A stretch of 64,000 nt of DNA from Haloarchaeobius sp. HME9146 (GTDB lineage: Archaea; Halobacteriota; Halobacteria; Halobacteriales; Natrialbaceae), in the NCBI RefSeq assembly GCF_025399835.1, contig NZ_JAODVR010000001.1, positions 1,178,001 through 1,242,000 on the forward strand, read 5' to 3'. Within the stretch, counting starts at the first letter, position 1. Every line of letters begins with the position of its first letter. Shown here piece by piece: positions 40,628-45,767 of the stretch. Both the position numbers and the translations under genes were made by a program. The notes under the pieces are model-generated. The model did no database searches and was not told the origin of the DNA. It saw only the letters and a list, made by a program, of their open reading frames with translations.

Positions 40628-41719
40628 ATGGATCCCCGAATCGAGCGCCACGCCGATATCATCGTCAACCACTCCACCAGCGTCGAACCCGACGACAACG
40701 TCCTCGTGATGGCCCCGCCGGTCGCGGAGGACCTCGTCGTCGCCGTCTACGAACGACTCGGCGAGATCGGTGCGAGCCCGTCGCTGTCGATGCGGTCCGG
40801 GCGCGCTCTCCGTGCCTACCTGCGTGCCTCGGACCCGGACGACTTCGACATCTCCAAGCACGACCTCGCCCAGATGGAGGAGACGGACGTGGTCATCATC
40901 ATCCGTGGTGACGAGAACACGAACGAGCGAAGCGACGTTCCGCCGGAGACGATGAGCGCGTTCGGGAAGGCCCACCAGCCCATCGGCAAGGAGCGCATGG
41001 GCAAGCGCTGGGTCGGCACACAGTACCCGGCGTCCGGGAACGCCCAGGAGGCGGAGATGTCTACCCCGGCGTACGAGGACTTCGTCTACGAGGCCATCGA
41101 CAAGGACTGGGACGAACAGCGCGAGTTCCAGGCGAACATGGTCGAGATCCTCGACCCGGCCGACGAGGTCCGCATCGTCTCCGGCGAGACGACGGACATC
41201 CGCATGAGCGTCGACGGGATGGTCACGGCCAACGACTACGGCGAACTCAACCTCCCCGGTGGGGAGGTGTACACGGCACCGGTTCCCGATTCGGTCGAGG
41301 GTGAGGTGCTGTTCGACAAGCCGCTGATGGCCCAGGGTCGCGAGATGACCGACGTGTGGCTCAAGTTCGAGGGCGGCGAGGTCGTCGACCACAGCGCCGA
41401 GAAGAACGAGGACGTGCTGACCGCAGTGCTGAACACCGACGAGGGTGCCCGTCGCCTGGGCGAACTCGGCATCGGGATGAACCGCGACATCGACGAGTTC
41501 ACGTACAACATGCTGTTCGACGAGAAGATGGGCGACACCATCCACCTCGCCATCGGGAAGGCTATCGCCCACACCGTCCCCGACGGCCAGCCGCTCAACG
41601 AGAGCGCGATGCACATGGACATGATCGTCGACATGAGCGAGGACTCCTACATCGAGGTCGACGGGGAAATCGTGCAGCGTGATGGGACGTTTAGATTCGA
41701 AGACGGGTTCGAGGAGTAG
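40628..41719 (+). CDS. M29 family metallo-aminopeptidase, copy 1
   Basis: A 363-residue aminopeptidase of family M29 (AmpS/PepS/aminopeptidase T type), a cytoplasmic two-metal exopeptidase. The metal-site residues are in the family order: E213 in LPGGEVYTAP, E279 in LGELGIGMNRD, H306 in DTIHLAIGKA, H329 and D331 in HMDMIVDM. The N-terminal domain (about 1-190) is the substrate-side domain. The ATG at 40628 (MDPRIERHADIIV) matches the start of the three paralogues. First of four tandem copies, each with its own promoter, none overlapping. Confidence 0.9.
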   Translation: MDPRIERHADIIVNHSTSVEPDDNVLVMAPPVAEDLVVAVYERLGEIGASPSLSMRSGRALRAYLRASDPDDFDISKHDLAQMEETDVVIIIRGDENTNERSDVPPETMSAFGKAHQPIGKERMGKRWVGTQYPASGNAQEAEMSTPAYEDFVYEAIDKDWDEQREFQANMVEILDPADEVRIVSGETTDIRMSVDGMVTANDYGELNLPGGEVYTAPVPDSVEGEVLFDKPLMAQGREMTDVWLKFEGGEVVDHSAEKNEDVLTAVLNTDEGARRLGELGIGMNRDIDEFTYNMLFDEKMGDTIHLAIGKAIAHTVPDGQPLNESAMHMDMIVDMSEDSYIEVDGEIVQRDGTFRFEDGFEE

Positions 41720-41788
41720 GGAGATTCGGAGCGACCGCAGGGAGCGAGAATCTCCGAATTGCGAGCGGCGTAGCCGCGAGCAGTAGCG
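41720..41788 (+). repeat. Stem-loop repeat element R1, after aminopeptidase copy 1
   Basis: The first base after the stop codon begins GGAGATTC, which pairs with GAATCTCC at 41748-41755 around a conserved loop (GGAGCGACCGCAGGGAGCGA). A second hairpin, GCGGC-GTA-GCCGC, lies at 41765-41777. An alternative pairing ATTCGGAG (41724-41731) with CTCCGAAT (41752-41759) uses the same arms. Confidence 0.8.
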
Positions 41789-41827
41789 GGGGAACCTTCC
41801 GAAGCGACAGAACAGACAGAAAGCAAA

Positions 41828-41856
41828 CAGAAACGGGCTTCGCGGAACGGTTTTCC
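41828..41856 (+). promoter_or_regulatory. Promoter of aminopeptidase copy 2, degenerate dyad
   Basis: CAGAA-ACGGGC-TTCGC then GGAAC (41828-41848) corresponds to the promoter element of the other copies, but the right arm has lost two bases of the inverted repeat. GGTTTTCC follows where the TATA box stands in the other copies. The dyad begins 53 bp before the ATG. Confidence 0.5.
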
Positions 41857-41880
41857 AGTCCATGGGCGTTGACTGCCCAC

Positions 41881-42972
41881 ATGGACCCTCGTGTCAGAAA
41901 ACACGCCAAAATCGTTGTCGACCACTGTCTCGACGTGCAGGCAGGCGAGAACGTACTGGTAGAGGCCAAGCCTGCAGTCGAGGAGTTCGTCGTGGCACTG
42001 TACGAACTGCTCGGCGAGCGGAACGCGCTTCCGATGCGAGTCGGGGACAGTCCGCGCGCCTCGCAGGCATACCTCGAAGAACTCGACATCGGTACAGCGT
42101 CGCTGAAGGAACACAGGTTGGCCGCCTACGAGGCCGCGGACAAGGTCGTTCTGGTGTGGGGGATGGAGAACACGCGCGCGTCGAGCGAGATGGACCCCGA
42201 GATCTCGAACGCGATGGGTGAGGCGAACCGCGCCGTCTTCGAGGAGCGAATGGACACGCCCTGGGTTGGGACGATGCACCCGCTTTCGGGGACTGCCCAG
42301 GAGGCAGAGATGAGCACGCCCGCCTACGAGGAGTTCGTCTACGACGCCGTGACCAAGGACTGGGAAGAACAGCGAGCGTTCCAGGAACAACTGGTCGAAC
42401 TTCTCGACCCTGCCGAGGAGGTCCGCATCGTTTCCGGTGATGAGACCGACATCACGATGCGGGTAGATGGGATGGATGCTGGGAACGACTACGCGAAGCG
42501 AAACCTTCCTGGTGGGGAGGTCTACACCGTTCCCATCCCTGACTCCGTCGAGGGTGAGGTACGCTTCGACGTTCCGGTCGTCCAGCGCGGAAAGCAACTA
42601 GCGGGGGTGTGGCTCCGGTTCGAGGAGGGCGAGGTGGTCGAGTTTGAGGCTGAGAAGAACGAGGAGACGCTGGCGAGTATCCTCGACGCCGACGAGGGTG
42701 CAAAGCGTCTCGGTGAGCTGGGCATCGGGATGAACCGCGACATAGACCAGGTGACGAACCACATGCTGTTCGACGAGAAGATGGGAGACACGGTCCACCT
42801 CGCGCTCGGAACGGCGATAGAGGATGTGGTTCCCGAGGGCCAACCGTCCAACGAGAGCATGGTTCACGTCGACATGCTGGTCGACATGAACGAGGACTCC
42901 TACATCGAGTTCGACGGTGAAGTCGTGCAGCGGAACGGGACGTTCAGATTCGAAGACGGGTTCGAGGAGTAG
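41881..42972 (+). CDS. M29 family metallo-aminopeptidase, copy 2
   Basis: A 363-residue paralogue of copy 1, with the same metal-site blocks (GGEVYTVPIPDSVEGEV, RLGELGIGMNRDID, DTVHLALGTAIED, VHVDMLVDMNEDSYIEF). The N-terminal half is the most divergent of the four (VLVEAKPAVEEFVVALYELL), hinting at a different peptide preference. The ATG at 41881 aligns with the starts of the other copies; one 12 bp upstream is possible. Its stop is the first part of repeat element R2a. Confidence 0.9.
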   Translation: MDPRVRKHAKIVVDHCLDVQAGENVLVEAKPAVEEFVVALYELLGERNALPMRVGDSPRASQAYLEELDIGTASLKEHRLAAYEAADKVVLVWGMENTRASSEMDPEISNAMGEANRAVFEERMDTPWVGTMHPLSGTAQEAEMSTPAYEEFVYDAVTKDWEEQRAFQEQLVELLDPAEEVRIVSGDETDITMRVDGMDAGNDYAKRNLPGGEVYTVPIPDSVEGEVRFDVPVVQRGKQLAGVWLRFEEGEVVEFEAEKNEETLASILDADEGAKRLGELGIGMNRDIDQVTNHMLFDEKMGDTVHLALGTAIEDVVPEGQPSNESMVHVDMLVDMNEDSYIEFDGEVVQRNGTFRFEDGFEE

Positions 42973-42999
42973 GGAGACGCGACCGCAGGGAGCGTCTCC
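42973..42999 (+). repeat. Stem-loop repeat element R2a, short form
   Basis: GGAGACGC (42973-42980) pairs with GCGTCTCC (42992-42999) around the loop GACCGCAGGGA. Relative to R1 the lower stem changes at several positions on both sides, so pairing is kept. It starts at the first base after the stop codon of copy 2. Confidence 0.8.
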
Positions 43000-43037
43000 G
43001 AGCCCGAACGGGGAGCAGAGCGACCCGTGAGGAGTAG

Positions 43038-43104
43038 GGAGATTCGGAGCGACCGCAGGGAGCGAGAACCTCCGAATTGCGAGCGGCGTAGCCGCGAGCA
43101 GTAG
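43038..43104 (+). repeat. Stem-loop repeat element R2b, long form
   Basis: GGAGATTC (43038-43045) faces GAACCTCC (43066-43073) with one mismatch, while the alternative stem ATTCGGAG (43042-43049) with CTCCGAAT (43070-43077) stays perfect. The second hairpin GCGGC-GTA-GCCGC follows at 43083-43095. The preceding bases GAGGAGTAG copy the tail of an aminopeptidase gene although no gene ends here. Confidence 0.78.
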
Positions 43105-43173
43105 GCTCGTCTCGGCCATCGACACGACCAGTCTCTGACCCCCTGTTCGCTCGTCGCAATATCAACTATCGGA

Positions 43174-43203
43174 CAGAACTGTCGTTCTGCGAACCATTAA
43201 TCC
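43174..43203 (+). promoter_or_regulatory. Promoter of aminopeptidase copy 3 with CAGAA/TTCTG dyad
   Basis: CAGAA-CTGTCG-TTCTG (43174-43189), then CGAAC and the TATA-like CATTAATC (43195-43202). The dyad begins 51 bp before the ATG at 43225. Confidence 0.65.
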
Positions 43204-43224
43204 CGGTCGAGTCGTCGGACTGGT

Positions 43225-44304
43225 ATGGATTCACGAATCGAACAACACGCTGATATCCTCGTCAACCACTCCACGAACATCCAGCCCGGTGACAAGGTCA
43301 TCGTCGCCGCGCCCCCGGAGGCGAGCGACCTCGTCGCTGCCGTTTTCAAGAAACTGGGGGAGGTTGGTGCCCGTCCCGTCCAGCTCACACAGGACTCGCG
43401 GGCGATGCGAGAGTTCGTCCTCGCGGTCGACCCGGAGACGCTCGACCTGCCGGAACACCTCCAGGCGCTCATGGACGAGACCGACGTACTCATCGGCATC
43501 AGTGGAAGCTCGAACAAGAACGAGACGAGCGATGTCCCTCCCGAGAAGATCATGGCACTCGCGAAGCTGAACAAGCCGATTCAGGACGCGATGATGGAGA
43601 AGCGCTGGGTGGGAACGCAGTTCCCCGCCACGGGCGACGCCCAGAAAGCGGAGATGTCCACCCCCGCCTACGAGGACTTCGTCTGGGGCGCCATCAACCG
43701 GGACTGGGGCGCACAGCGCGAACTCCAGCAGCAGGTCGTCGACCGCCTCGACGACGCCGACGAGGTTCGCATCGTCTCGGGTGACACGACGGACCTGACG
43801 ATGTCCATCCGTGGGAACCTGACGAAGAACGACTTCGGCGAGAACAACCTCCCCGGCGGTGAGGTGTTCACCGCACCCGTCCCCGACAGCGTCGAGGGTG
43901 AGGTGTTGTTCGACAAGCCGCTGATGGCCCAGGGCCGCGAGGTCACGGGTGTCCGACTCGTCTTCGAGCAGGGCGAGGTCGTCGAGTACGAGGCCGAGAA
44001 GAACGAGGAGCTGCTCGCGGCTGTCCTCAACACGGACGACGGTGCCCGTCGCATCGGCGAACTCGGCATCGGTATGAACCGCGATATCGACCGGTTCACG
44101 TACAACATGCTGTTCGACGAGAAGATGGGCGACACCATCCACCTCGCTATCGGGCGCGCCATCGAGGGGACCGTCGGTGAGGGCGTCGAGTTCAACGACT
44201 CGGCAGTCCACATGGACATGATCGTCGACATGAGCCAGGATTCGTACATCGAGGTCGACGGCGAGGTCATCCAGCGCGACGGCAAGTTCTGGTTCGAGGA
44301 GTAG
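43225..44304 (+). CDS. M29 family metallo-aminopeptidase, copy 3
   Basis: A 359-residue paralogue, closest to copy 4. Both share VQLTQDSRAMREFVLAVDPE-type sequence, KNETSDVPPEK and the C-terminus DGKFWFEE. The metal-site residues are all present (GGEVFTAPVPD, RIGELGIGMNRDID, DTIHLAIGRAIEG, VHMDMIVDMSQDSYIEV). The gene lies 120 bp after repeat R2b, with its own promoter. Confidence 0.9.
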   Translation: MDSRIEQHADILVNHSTNIQPGDKVIVAAPPEASDLVAAVFKKLGEVGARPVQLTQDSRAMREFVLAVDPETLDLPEHLQALMDETDVLIGISGSSNKNETSDVPPEKIMALAKLNKPIQDAMMEKRWVGTQFPATGDAQKAEMSTPAYEDFVWGAINRDWGAQRELQQQVVDRLDDADEVRIVSGDTTDLTMSIRGNLTKNDFGENNLPGGEVFTAPVPDSVEGEVLFDKPLMAQGREVTGVRLVFEQGEVVEYEAEKNEELLAAVLNTDDGARRIGELGIGMNRDIDRFTYNMLFDEKMGDTIHLAIGRAIEGTVGEGVEFNDSAVHMDMIVDMSQDSYIEVDGEVIQRDGKFWFEE

Positions 44305-44372
44305 GGAGATTCGGAGCGACCGCAGGGAGCGAGAATCTCCGAATTGCGAGCGGCGGAGCCGCGAGCAGTAGC
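44305..44372 (+). repeat. Stem-loop repeat element R3, after aminopeptidase copy 3
   Basis: GGAGATTC (44305-44312) pairs perfectly with GAATCTCC (44333-44340), and ATTCGGAG (44309-44316) can alternatively pair with CTCCGAAT (44337-44344). The second hairpin is GCGGC-GGA-GCCGC (44350-44362), with a changed loop. The element begins at the first base after the stop. Confidence 0.8.
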
Positions 44373-44480
44373 GAGAATCACCAATATGCAACCGTCGGGA
44401 GCCGCGAAGACGGCTTCCAGGCCTGAGGCTCCCCGGTATCCTACACCGTTTCGACGAGTCAGCTATTGACAGACTCGAGA

Positions 44481-44508
44481 CAGAATTCCTGTTCTGGAAA
44501 CTATTAAC
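44481..44508 (+). promoter_or_regulatory. Promoter of aminopeptidase copy 4 with CAGAA/TTCTG dyad
   Basis: CAGAA-TTCCTG-TTCTG (44481-44496), then GAAAC and the TATA-like CTATTAAC. The dyad begins 52 bp before the ATG at 44533. Confidence 0.65.
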
Positions 44509-44532
44509 GACCTGGCACGAGTCGGCTCCAGT

Positions 44533-45612
44533 ATGGATTCCCGAATCGAGAAACACGCCGAGATCATCGTCGAACACTCCACCGACGTCCAGCCGGGCGA
44601 GACGGTCATCGTCTCCGGGCCGCCCGAAGCACGCGACCTCGTCGCCGCGGTGTACGGCAAACTCGGGGAGGTGGGTGCGTTGCCTGTCCAGCTCACACAG
44701 GACCCCCGCGCGATGCGCGAGTACATGCTCGCGGTCGACCCTGAAGAGCTCGACGTGCCCGAACACCTCCAGGCACTCATCGAGAAGACGGACGTGCTCA
44801 TCGGCATCCGCGCGAACTCGAACAAGAACGAGACGAGCGACGTGCCGCCGGAGAAGAACGTGGCGATGGCGAAGCTACACAAGCCCATCCAGGAGGCCAT
44901 GATGGAGAAGCGCTGGGTCGGCACGCAGTTCCCCGCGACCGGCGACGCCCAGAAGGCGGAGCTGTCGACGCCCGCCTACGAGGAGTTCGTCTACGGTGCC
45001 ATCAACAGGGACTGGGACGCCCAGCGCGAACTGCAACAGCAGGTCGTCGACCGGCTGGAGGGTGCCGACGAGGTTCGCATCGTCTCCGGCGAGACGACCG
45101 ACATCACCATGTCCGTCCTCGGCAACCCGACCAAGAACGACTACGCCGAGCACAACCTGCCGGGCGGCGAGGTGTTCACCGCGCCGGTACCCGACAGCGT
45201 GGAGGGCGAGGTGCTGTTCGACAAGCCGCTGATGTCCCAGGGTCGCGAGGTCACGGGCGTCCGGCTCGTCTTCGAGGAGGGGGAGGTCGTCGAGTACGAG
45301 GCCGAGAAGAACGAGGAGGTGCTGGCGGCCGCCCTCCAGACCGACGAGGGCGCGAAGCGAATCGGCGAACTCGGTATCGGGATGAACCGCGATATCGACC
45401 GGTTCACGTACAACATGCTGTTCGACGAGAAGATGGGCGACACCATCCACCTTGCACTCGGGCGGGCCTACGAGGATACCGTGGGCGAGGGCAACGAGCG
45501 CAACGATTCAGCCGTGCACATGGACATGATCGTCGACATGAGCGAGGATTCGTACATCGAGGTGGATGGCGAGGTCATCCAGCGCGATGGACAGTTCTGG
45601 TTCGAAGAGTAG
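44533..45612 (+). CDS. M29 family metallo-aminopeptidase, copy 4
   Basis: A 359-residue paralogue nearly identical in plan to copy 3 (KNETSDVPPEKNVAMAKLHK, AINRDWDAQRELQQQVVDRL). The conserved metal-site blocks are intact (GGEVFTAPVPD, RIGELGIGMNRDID, DTIHLALGRAYED, VHMDMIVDMSEDSYIEV). Copies 3 and 4 look like the most recent duplication. Last member of the array; beyond it lie two repeat elements and oppositely oriented genes. Confidence 0.9.
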   Translation: MDSRIEKHAEIIVEHSTDVQPGETVIVSGPPEARDLVAAVYGKLGEVGALPVQLTQDPRAMREYMLAVDPEELDVPEHLQALIEKTDVLIGIRANSNKNETSDVPPEKNVAMAKLHKPIQEAMMEKRWVGTQFPATGDAQKAELSTPAYEEFVYGAINRDWDAQRELQQQVVDRLEGADEVRIVSGETTDITMSVLGNPTKNDYAEHNLPGGEVFTAPVPDSVEGEVLFDKPLMSQGREVTGVRLVFEEGEVVEYEAEKNEEVLAAALQTDEGAKRIGELGIGMNRDIDRFTYNMLFDEKMGDTIHLALGRAYEDTVGEGNERNDSAVHMDMIVDMSEDSYIEVDGEVIQRDGQFWFEE

Positions 45613-45669
45613 GGAGACGCGACCGCAGGGAGCGTCTCCGATTGCGAGCGGCGGAGCCGCGAGCAGTAG
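45613..45669 (+). repeat. Stem-loop repeat element R4a, after aminopeptidase copy 4
   Basis: The short form GGAGACGC (45613-45620) pairs with GCGTCTCC (45632-45639) around GACCGCAGGGA, followed by GCGGC-GGA-GCCGC (45648-45660). It starts at the first base after the stop codon. Confidence 0.8.
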
Positions 45670-45705
45670 CGAGGTTCGGAGCGACCGCAGGGAGCGAGAA
45701 CCTCG
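45670..45705 (+). repeat. Stem-loop repeat element R4b
   Basis: CGAGGTTC (45670-45677) pairs with GAACCTCG (45698-45705) around the same loop as R1. Both arms differ from R1 and still pair fully. A looser related sequence (GGCGACCGAAGGGAGCCGTGAAGACA) follows to about 45742. Confidence 0.75.
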
Positions 45706-45767
45706 TATCTGAACGGCGACCGAAGGGAGCCGTGAAGACAGGTTCGAGAACTGACTGGACCCGCCAA

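Follow-up and report, generated by a model that had tools for sequence, protein, structure and literature searches.

A possible haloarchaeal counterpart of bacterial GTAG-tagged palindromes at the 3′ ends of M29 aminopeptidase genes

The closest described relatives in kind of the repeat reported here are the GTAG-tagged repetitive extragenic palindromes (REPs) of bacteria and the bacterial interspersed mosaic elements (BIMEs), in which an unpaired GTAG stands at the 5′ foot of a short imperfect palindrome (PMC3733652, PMC2817692). In bacteria, open reading frames (ORFs) that flank GTAG REPs often take their TAG stop from the tag (PMC3733652). Our repeat was found in a 64,000-nucleotide stretch (hereafter the window; G000:C1:1178001-1242000) of the 4.19 Mb archaeal genome of a Haloarchaeobius species (G000), where copies of a stem-loop element lie behind and between four tandem genes for M29 aminopeptidase paralogues (40628-45612; PF02073 was tested on the third). 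On balance, we favor the reading that these repeats correspond in kind, within haloarchaea, to bacterial GTAG-tagged REPs and BIMEs, that is, short composite DNA palindromes that have entered genes at their 3′ ends. We found no published description of the element in the literature, subscription journals not being covered, and its exact core strings appeared in no full-text paper.

Like GTAG REPs, the repeats are extragenic and clustered, carry the unpaired GTAG at the 5′ foot of a short imperfect palindrome, form stem subtypes with alternative complementary residues, and supply a TAG stop through their tag (28 units here). Unlike GTAG REPs, they are haloarchaeal, lack a REP-associated tyrosine transposase (RAYT) and any Y1_Tnp domain in the genome, combine tandem GA/GA mismatches with GNA or GNNA loops, and are strongly confined to stop codons and M29 genes. 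GTAG REPs often exceed 100 copies, whereas here we found nine gene loci of the stop-associated class (class A, described below) and at least 12-23 composite matches per genome; BIMEs alternate in orientation, whereas the two-hairpin units here run head to tail. Given the absence of RAYT and Y1, the low copy number, and the lack of alternation, we describe the element as working like a GTAG REP and do not file it as one.

Two other systems invite comparison. The palindrome-associated transposable elements (PATEs) of Haloquadratum, which are non-autonomous and related to IS605 (PMC3119063), are likewise haloarchaeal and palindromic without a transposase gene, and share the use of a terminal oligonucleotide as target site and the absence of target duplication; however, in PATEs near-terminal palindromes enclose a body and the ends match IS605, whereas our element consists of hairpins only, in a genome without Y1. 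The hairpin or cruciform of diversity-generating retroelements (DGRs; PMC3240598) resembles the present hairpins in its GC-rich stem of 7-10 bp and free sequence near a TAG stop, in a loop that starts with G and ends with A, and in being sense-strand specific and working as DNA. Its loops are GRNA, though, whereas those here are GNA, GCTA, and GCCA, and, unlike in DGRs, the duplicated M29 gene tails described below (96-99% identical) show no adenine bias by inspection. An archaeal counterpart to bacterial REPs would offer a natural experiment: palindromes, once inserted, take the place of stop codons and shorten proteins, yet the original ends can still be read behind them. It would raise the question of which agent, in the absence of a Y1 transposase, carries or copies hairpins to gene ends, and would imply that strong covariation at haloarchaeal 3′ ends need not mean a functional RNA.

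The core CGACCGCAGGGAGC occurs in six exact copies in the window, as originally predicted, all on the forward strand (41732, 42980, 43050, 44317, 45620, and 45682), and a seventh copy with one mismatch lies at 45717. Allowing up to two mismatches gives 11 hits in the window against 2.25 expected, and the whole genome holds just one further exact copy (locus L030; L numbers denote individual loci), likewise behind an M29 gene. Each hairpin is an imperfect palindrome of the form outer stem-GA-inner stem-GNA loop-inner stem-GA-outer stem. Behind four core copies a second hairpin type, TGCGAGCGGCG[T/G]AGCCGCGAGCA, follows and is itself followed by GTAG; a third type, ACGG[G/C]...[C/G]CCGT (ACGGG...CCCGT or ACGGC...GCCGT), is also present. 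With H1 and H2 standing for the first and second hairpins, arrays therefore read TAG-H1-H2-TAG-H1-H2, head to tail, and all units of the window lie on the same strand. Eleven strict-form hairpins were found in the window, all within 41738-45723, as against 0-1 in ten order-3 Markov sequences. RNA folding returns exactly the proposed structure, with z of about -3.6 to -4.3 for the first-hairpin copies.

Gene 1 (40628-41719; all features of the cluster are on the forward strand) and gene 2 (41881-42972), both identified by ORF and paralogue search, end in FEDGFEE* with a TAG stop. At the first base after the stop of gene 1 begins the first hairpin of copy R1 (GGAGATTC/GAATCTCC, 41720-41755), followed by its second hairpin (TGCGAGCGGCGTAGCCGCGAGCA, 41760-41782) and GTAG at 41783. 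Behind gene 2 stand the first hairpin of R2a (GGAGACGC/GCGTCTCC, 42973-42999), a third-type hairpin recognized from the sequence (ACGGG...CCCGT, 43008-43028), an internal GTAG with no gene in front (GAGGAGTAG, 43034-43037), and R2b, with its first hairpin at 43038-43073, its second at 43078-43100, and GTAG at 43101. The paired stems of the original prediction were recovered as described in the other copies, but that of R2b (GGAGATTC/GAACCTCC) contains one A.C mismatch. Genes 3 (43225-44304; PF02073 confirmed) and 4 (44533-45612) now end in FWFEE* with TAG, truncated by the insertion. Gene 3 is followed by R3 (first hairpin 44305-44340, second 44345-44367, then GTAG at 44368) and, further on, by its displaced original C-terminus (GAAGACGGCTTCCAGGCCTGA, encoding EDGFQA*, 44406-44426). 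Gene 4 is followed by R4a (first hairpin GGAGACGC/GCGTCTCC, 45613-45639; second hairpin 45643-45665), an internal GTAG (45666-45669), the first hairpin of R4b (CGAGGTTC/GAACCTCG, 45670-45705), a third-type hairpin that holds the seventh core variant (ACGGCGACCGAAGGGAGCCGT, 45713-45733), and the displaced C-terminus (GAAGACAGGTTCGAGAACTGA, encoding EDRFEN*, 45734-45754). Four copies thus begin at the first base after TAG (41720, 42973, 44305, and 45613), as had been predicted, and just as R2b is preceded by GAGGAGTAG, so is R4b by GAGCAGTAG. G000 has M29 paralogues at eight loci, four of them in tandem, and sister species also have tandem M29 sets.

Displaced C-termini, together with empty sites in relatives, indicate that the arrays are insertions. 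Uninterrupted M29 proteins mostly end in ...FEDGFxx*, and since genes 3 and 4 have such tails beyond their arrays, the arrays must have entered at TTCGARGA^C, bringing a stop with them. Further displaced tails lie behind arrays at L030 (EDEFES*), L099 (DGFE*), and L089 (EDFEN*); the gene at L089 also keeps a full FEDGFEG end, as if it had acquired the array along with a foreign tail. Behind other genes, the pattern was absent (0/465). The idea that the element carries the gene tail with it accordingly needs revision: the element supplies the stop and the true tails of genes 3 and 4 were pushed downstream, although in the sister species G001 an array does stand behind an acquired-looking tail. 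As for empty sites, the acyl-CoA dehydrogenase gene of G001 reads TTCGAGTAG and passes almost at once into the common flank, where G000 has an array in between, and the flanks of the two species can be aligned on both sides. The site is also empty in G003, while G002, G004, and G005 carry other versions, and the array behind the FtsJ gene of G000 is absent in G001. The tail of the dehydrogenase gene, with TTCGAGTAA at its end, recurs farther downstream in two copies in G000 and in a single copy in G001 (L211, L212), in the latter without a TAG-headed array.

Some of these features could also arise without mobility, through local tandem duplication of a gene tail with its hairpin and concerted evolution of the paralogues, with template-switch repair producing the covariation. 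In three other genera, M29 gene ends of 71-75 bp recur behind the gene with 96-99% identity. Loop cores resemble each other more within a species than between orthologues, and ordinary tandem duplication at convergent genes does occur in G000. We nevertheless consider this account unlikely, as units also stand behind unrelated genes, and as tandem duplication would leave a further unit after the displaced tails of genes 3 and 4, where there is none. The M29 duplications themselves (L066, L069, L071, and partly L073, L075, and L076) place the repeated gene end about 95 bp downstream, and in L066 and L069 a hairpin built to the same grammar, with TTTTT after it, opens the insert. At L196, a gene-tail repeat (75 bp, perfect) was discarded as a candidate, being part of an ordinary, near-perfect 234 bp tandem duplication of about 2.1 copies across the ends of two convergent genes (L196:13176-13660; G000:C1:3373176-3373660).

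We then searched genomes with a covariance model built on H1 and H2, which, in line with the original prediction, recovered more copies with further compensatory changes. The per-genome counts given above hold for all six Haloarchaeobius species examined and are lower bounds, 150 of 2144-2648 first-look candidates having been scored per genome. Across the order, with 25 candidates scored per genome under strict filters, strong matches (E <= 1e-7) were present in at least 61 of 195 genomes and at least 29 of 67 genera. Class A, defined by an NTAG tag (mostly GTAG, some ATAG), makes up 38 of the 71 tabulated matches. In the genus set, 28 of these units stand at gap 0 behind a TAG stop, and the remaining ten lie mostly within arrays; every class A unit runs in the same direction as its gene. 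Class B is interspersed, has mostly a (G)GTG tag and the stem CGCGGTTC/GAACCGCG, and is random in orientation (18 versus 15), so the random placement and strand that had been named as counting against the element characterize class B only and not class A. All nine class A loci of G000 (9/9) are at stops, each at the first base after TAG, and follow five M29 genes, an acyl-CoA dehydrogenase, an FAD-dependent oxidoreductase, an FtsJ-TRAM methylase, and a small ORF with the end NPIEE*, the last a weak call; gene calling throughout relied on a home-made codon-usage tool that may overlook short genes. At L159 in Halosimplex salinum, a TAG-headed unit is nested within the loop of another unit. Outside the M29 cluster, 18 of 51 matches to GCGANNGNANNGAGC were paired, against 1 in 16 expected, and one paired match lies behind the fifth M29 gene. 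No viral contig searched held the strict class A pattern, and no plasmid searched held the class A pattern. Hairpins combining GA/GA with GNA also seemed enriched across the genome, but this result was rejected, having been inflated by motif-chosen stretches that include the cluster; the enrichment was absent, with weak stems, in an unbiased 500 kb sample, and the unbiased support lies in the paired share of GCGANNGNANNGAGC matches just given. Of the four roles first proposed for the element (terminator, 3′-end stabilizer, protein-binding site, and small mobile repeat), the displaced tails, empty sites, unrelated genes, and nesting favor the last.

TAG is the head of the unit and, at gene ends, serves as the stop codon. 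Internal borders with no gene in front still show GAGGAGTAG, GAGCAGTAG, or something similar, in the window and in most of the relatives’ arrays; TAG must therefore be part of the element, because it marks most array-internal borders, where it has no stop function. M29 genes with a perfect hairpin of at least 6 bp at +1 all end in TAG, and those without a +1 hairpin use TAG, TGA, and TAA. Hairpins of this kind are not general behind TAG stops: in an unbiased part of the genome, where TAG accounts for 108 of 476 stops, none was found (0/108).

Covariation is pronounced. Among 73 aligned matches, 96.6% of cells are paired compared to 78.5% after shuffling, a figure biased upward by an alignment fitted to the structure; double changes occur in 18 of 20 pairs, and shifting the partner by one column lowers pairing to 27-38%. 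The original prediction took compensatory change as direct evidence that the fold matters. This covariation is real and much stronger than first described, yet it does not directly point to a function as RNA: a DNA palindrome or template switching gives an equal signal, as template-switch repair can perfect palindromes and so produce covariation without selection on the fold. The outer stem holds three G-U cells among more than 500, while the inner helices hold some. Loops are mostly C-GNA-G and C-GNNA-G, both of which are stable DNA loops. Among intergenic hairpins with perfect stems of at least 7 bp, in a sample that includes motif-chosen stretches, GNA accounts for 16 of 40 triloops, whereas GNRA is rare among tetraloops (1 of 24). 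A kink-turn or L7Ae site, suggested by the GA/GA pairs, was dropped because the internal loop is symmetric or a one-base bulge.

A functional RNA hairpin, kept by selection behind the stop to stabilize the mRNA 3′ end, block a 3′ exonuclease or read-through, or bind a protein, would account for the constant gene orientation and immediate post-stop position of class A. It would also fit the same placement in other families, behind TAA or TGA and including thermosome-like GGMGGMM* ends, the G-U pairs of the inner helices, and the hairpins known upstream of some Haloferax volcanii transcript ends (PMC7237163). Against it, the hairpin is absent from sister-species orthologues and from the sampled TAG genes, class B is blind to orientation, and an Rfam search gave no match up to E = 1. 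The near-absence of G-U from the outer stem also counts against RNA, because helices evolving stepwise as RNA should show more of it. We thus regard an RNA function as a lesser possibility, and rather doubtful.

A role in transcription termination appears very improbable. The 3′-end position is like that of archaeal intrinsic terminators, and hairpins occur near some Haloferax transcript ends, but the archaeal signal is a T stretch (PMC7237163), which is absent here. No copy in the window has a T-run downstream, and a terminator scan of the forward strand of the window arrays returned nothing; T4 within 14 nt downstream was seen in just 2 of 28 such hairpins in G000 and 1 of 25 in G010, a member of another genus. 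Together with the hairpin-free sample of TAG stops, this leaves the terminator unsupported among the roles first proposed. Elsewhere, TTTTT does come after a few hairpins that share this grammar (L019, L025, and the M29 ends of L066 and L069). Those at L019:17771 and L025:10008 are followed by an identical CCTTTTTAGCGT and may be real terminators. Taken together, the few outer-stem G-U pairs, the GNA and GNNA loops, and the missing T-run are better explained by a DNA palindrome than by a terminator or an RNA.

Under the favored comparison with GTAG REPs, one or more [TAG-first hairpin-second hairpin] units would insert head to tail at gene 3′ ends. Each unit may be recognized as a single-stranded or cruciform DNA hairpin, by its GA/GA mismatches and GNA or GNNA loop, and would enter 3′ of a GA/GAGTAG-like site, with subsequent spread among M29 paralogues probably occurring via recombination and gene conversion. 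The mover would be an enzyme other than any Y1 transposase now encoded in the genome, and effects on the mRNA 3′ end would be secondary. Several observations weigh against this scheme. Y1_Tnp (PF01797) is absent in G000, RAYT (NF047646) gave nothing above cut-off in 125 genomes of the family, and the copy number is low for a REP. Intergenic GAGTAG sites are commoner than those at stops (28 versus 10 in the sample), so the preference for stops is not fully accounted for by target choice. Across the order, some related hairpins stand directly behind TAA or TGA stops; TAG is therefore not universal, and room is left for a 3′-end role. Empty sites in some species already end in TAG, which means that the TAG can be native, as it appears to be in the acyl-CoA dehydrogenase gene. 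A broader reading, which we consider rather unlikely to be correct, is that these are order-wide haloarchaeal DNA hairpin cassettes targeting stop codons. Such cassettes would insert in gene orientation exactly behind the stop, or in its place, would alter the C-terminus, and would pass from one unrelated gene end to another without Y1, via a structure-specific enzyme or a repair route.

Several further hairpins were noted in the course of these comparisons. At L233, L243, and L247, a hairpin of the family lies directly behind the stop of GGMGGMM* genes (thermosome-like by their tail), two species having TAA as the stop and the third TAG. At L143:1992-2046, a palindrome GAAGAGC-GATA-GCTCTTC spans the stop of a putative NusG/Spt5-like gene, with the TAG stop at the loop. 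Finally, G010 carries a longer multi-hairpin repeat, GGATGAGCGACCGNAGGGAGC ... ACGGCGAACGGAGTGAGCCGT, at many intergenic sites (e.g., L036, L045, and L047).

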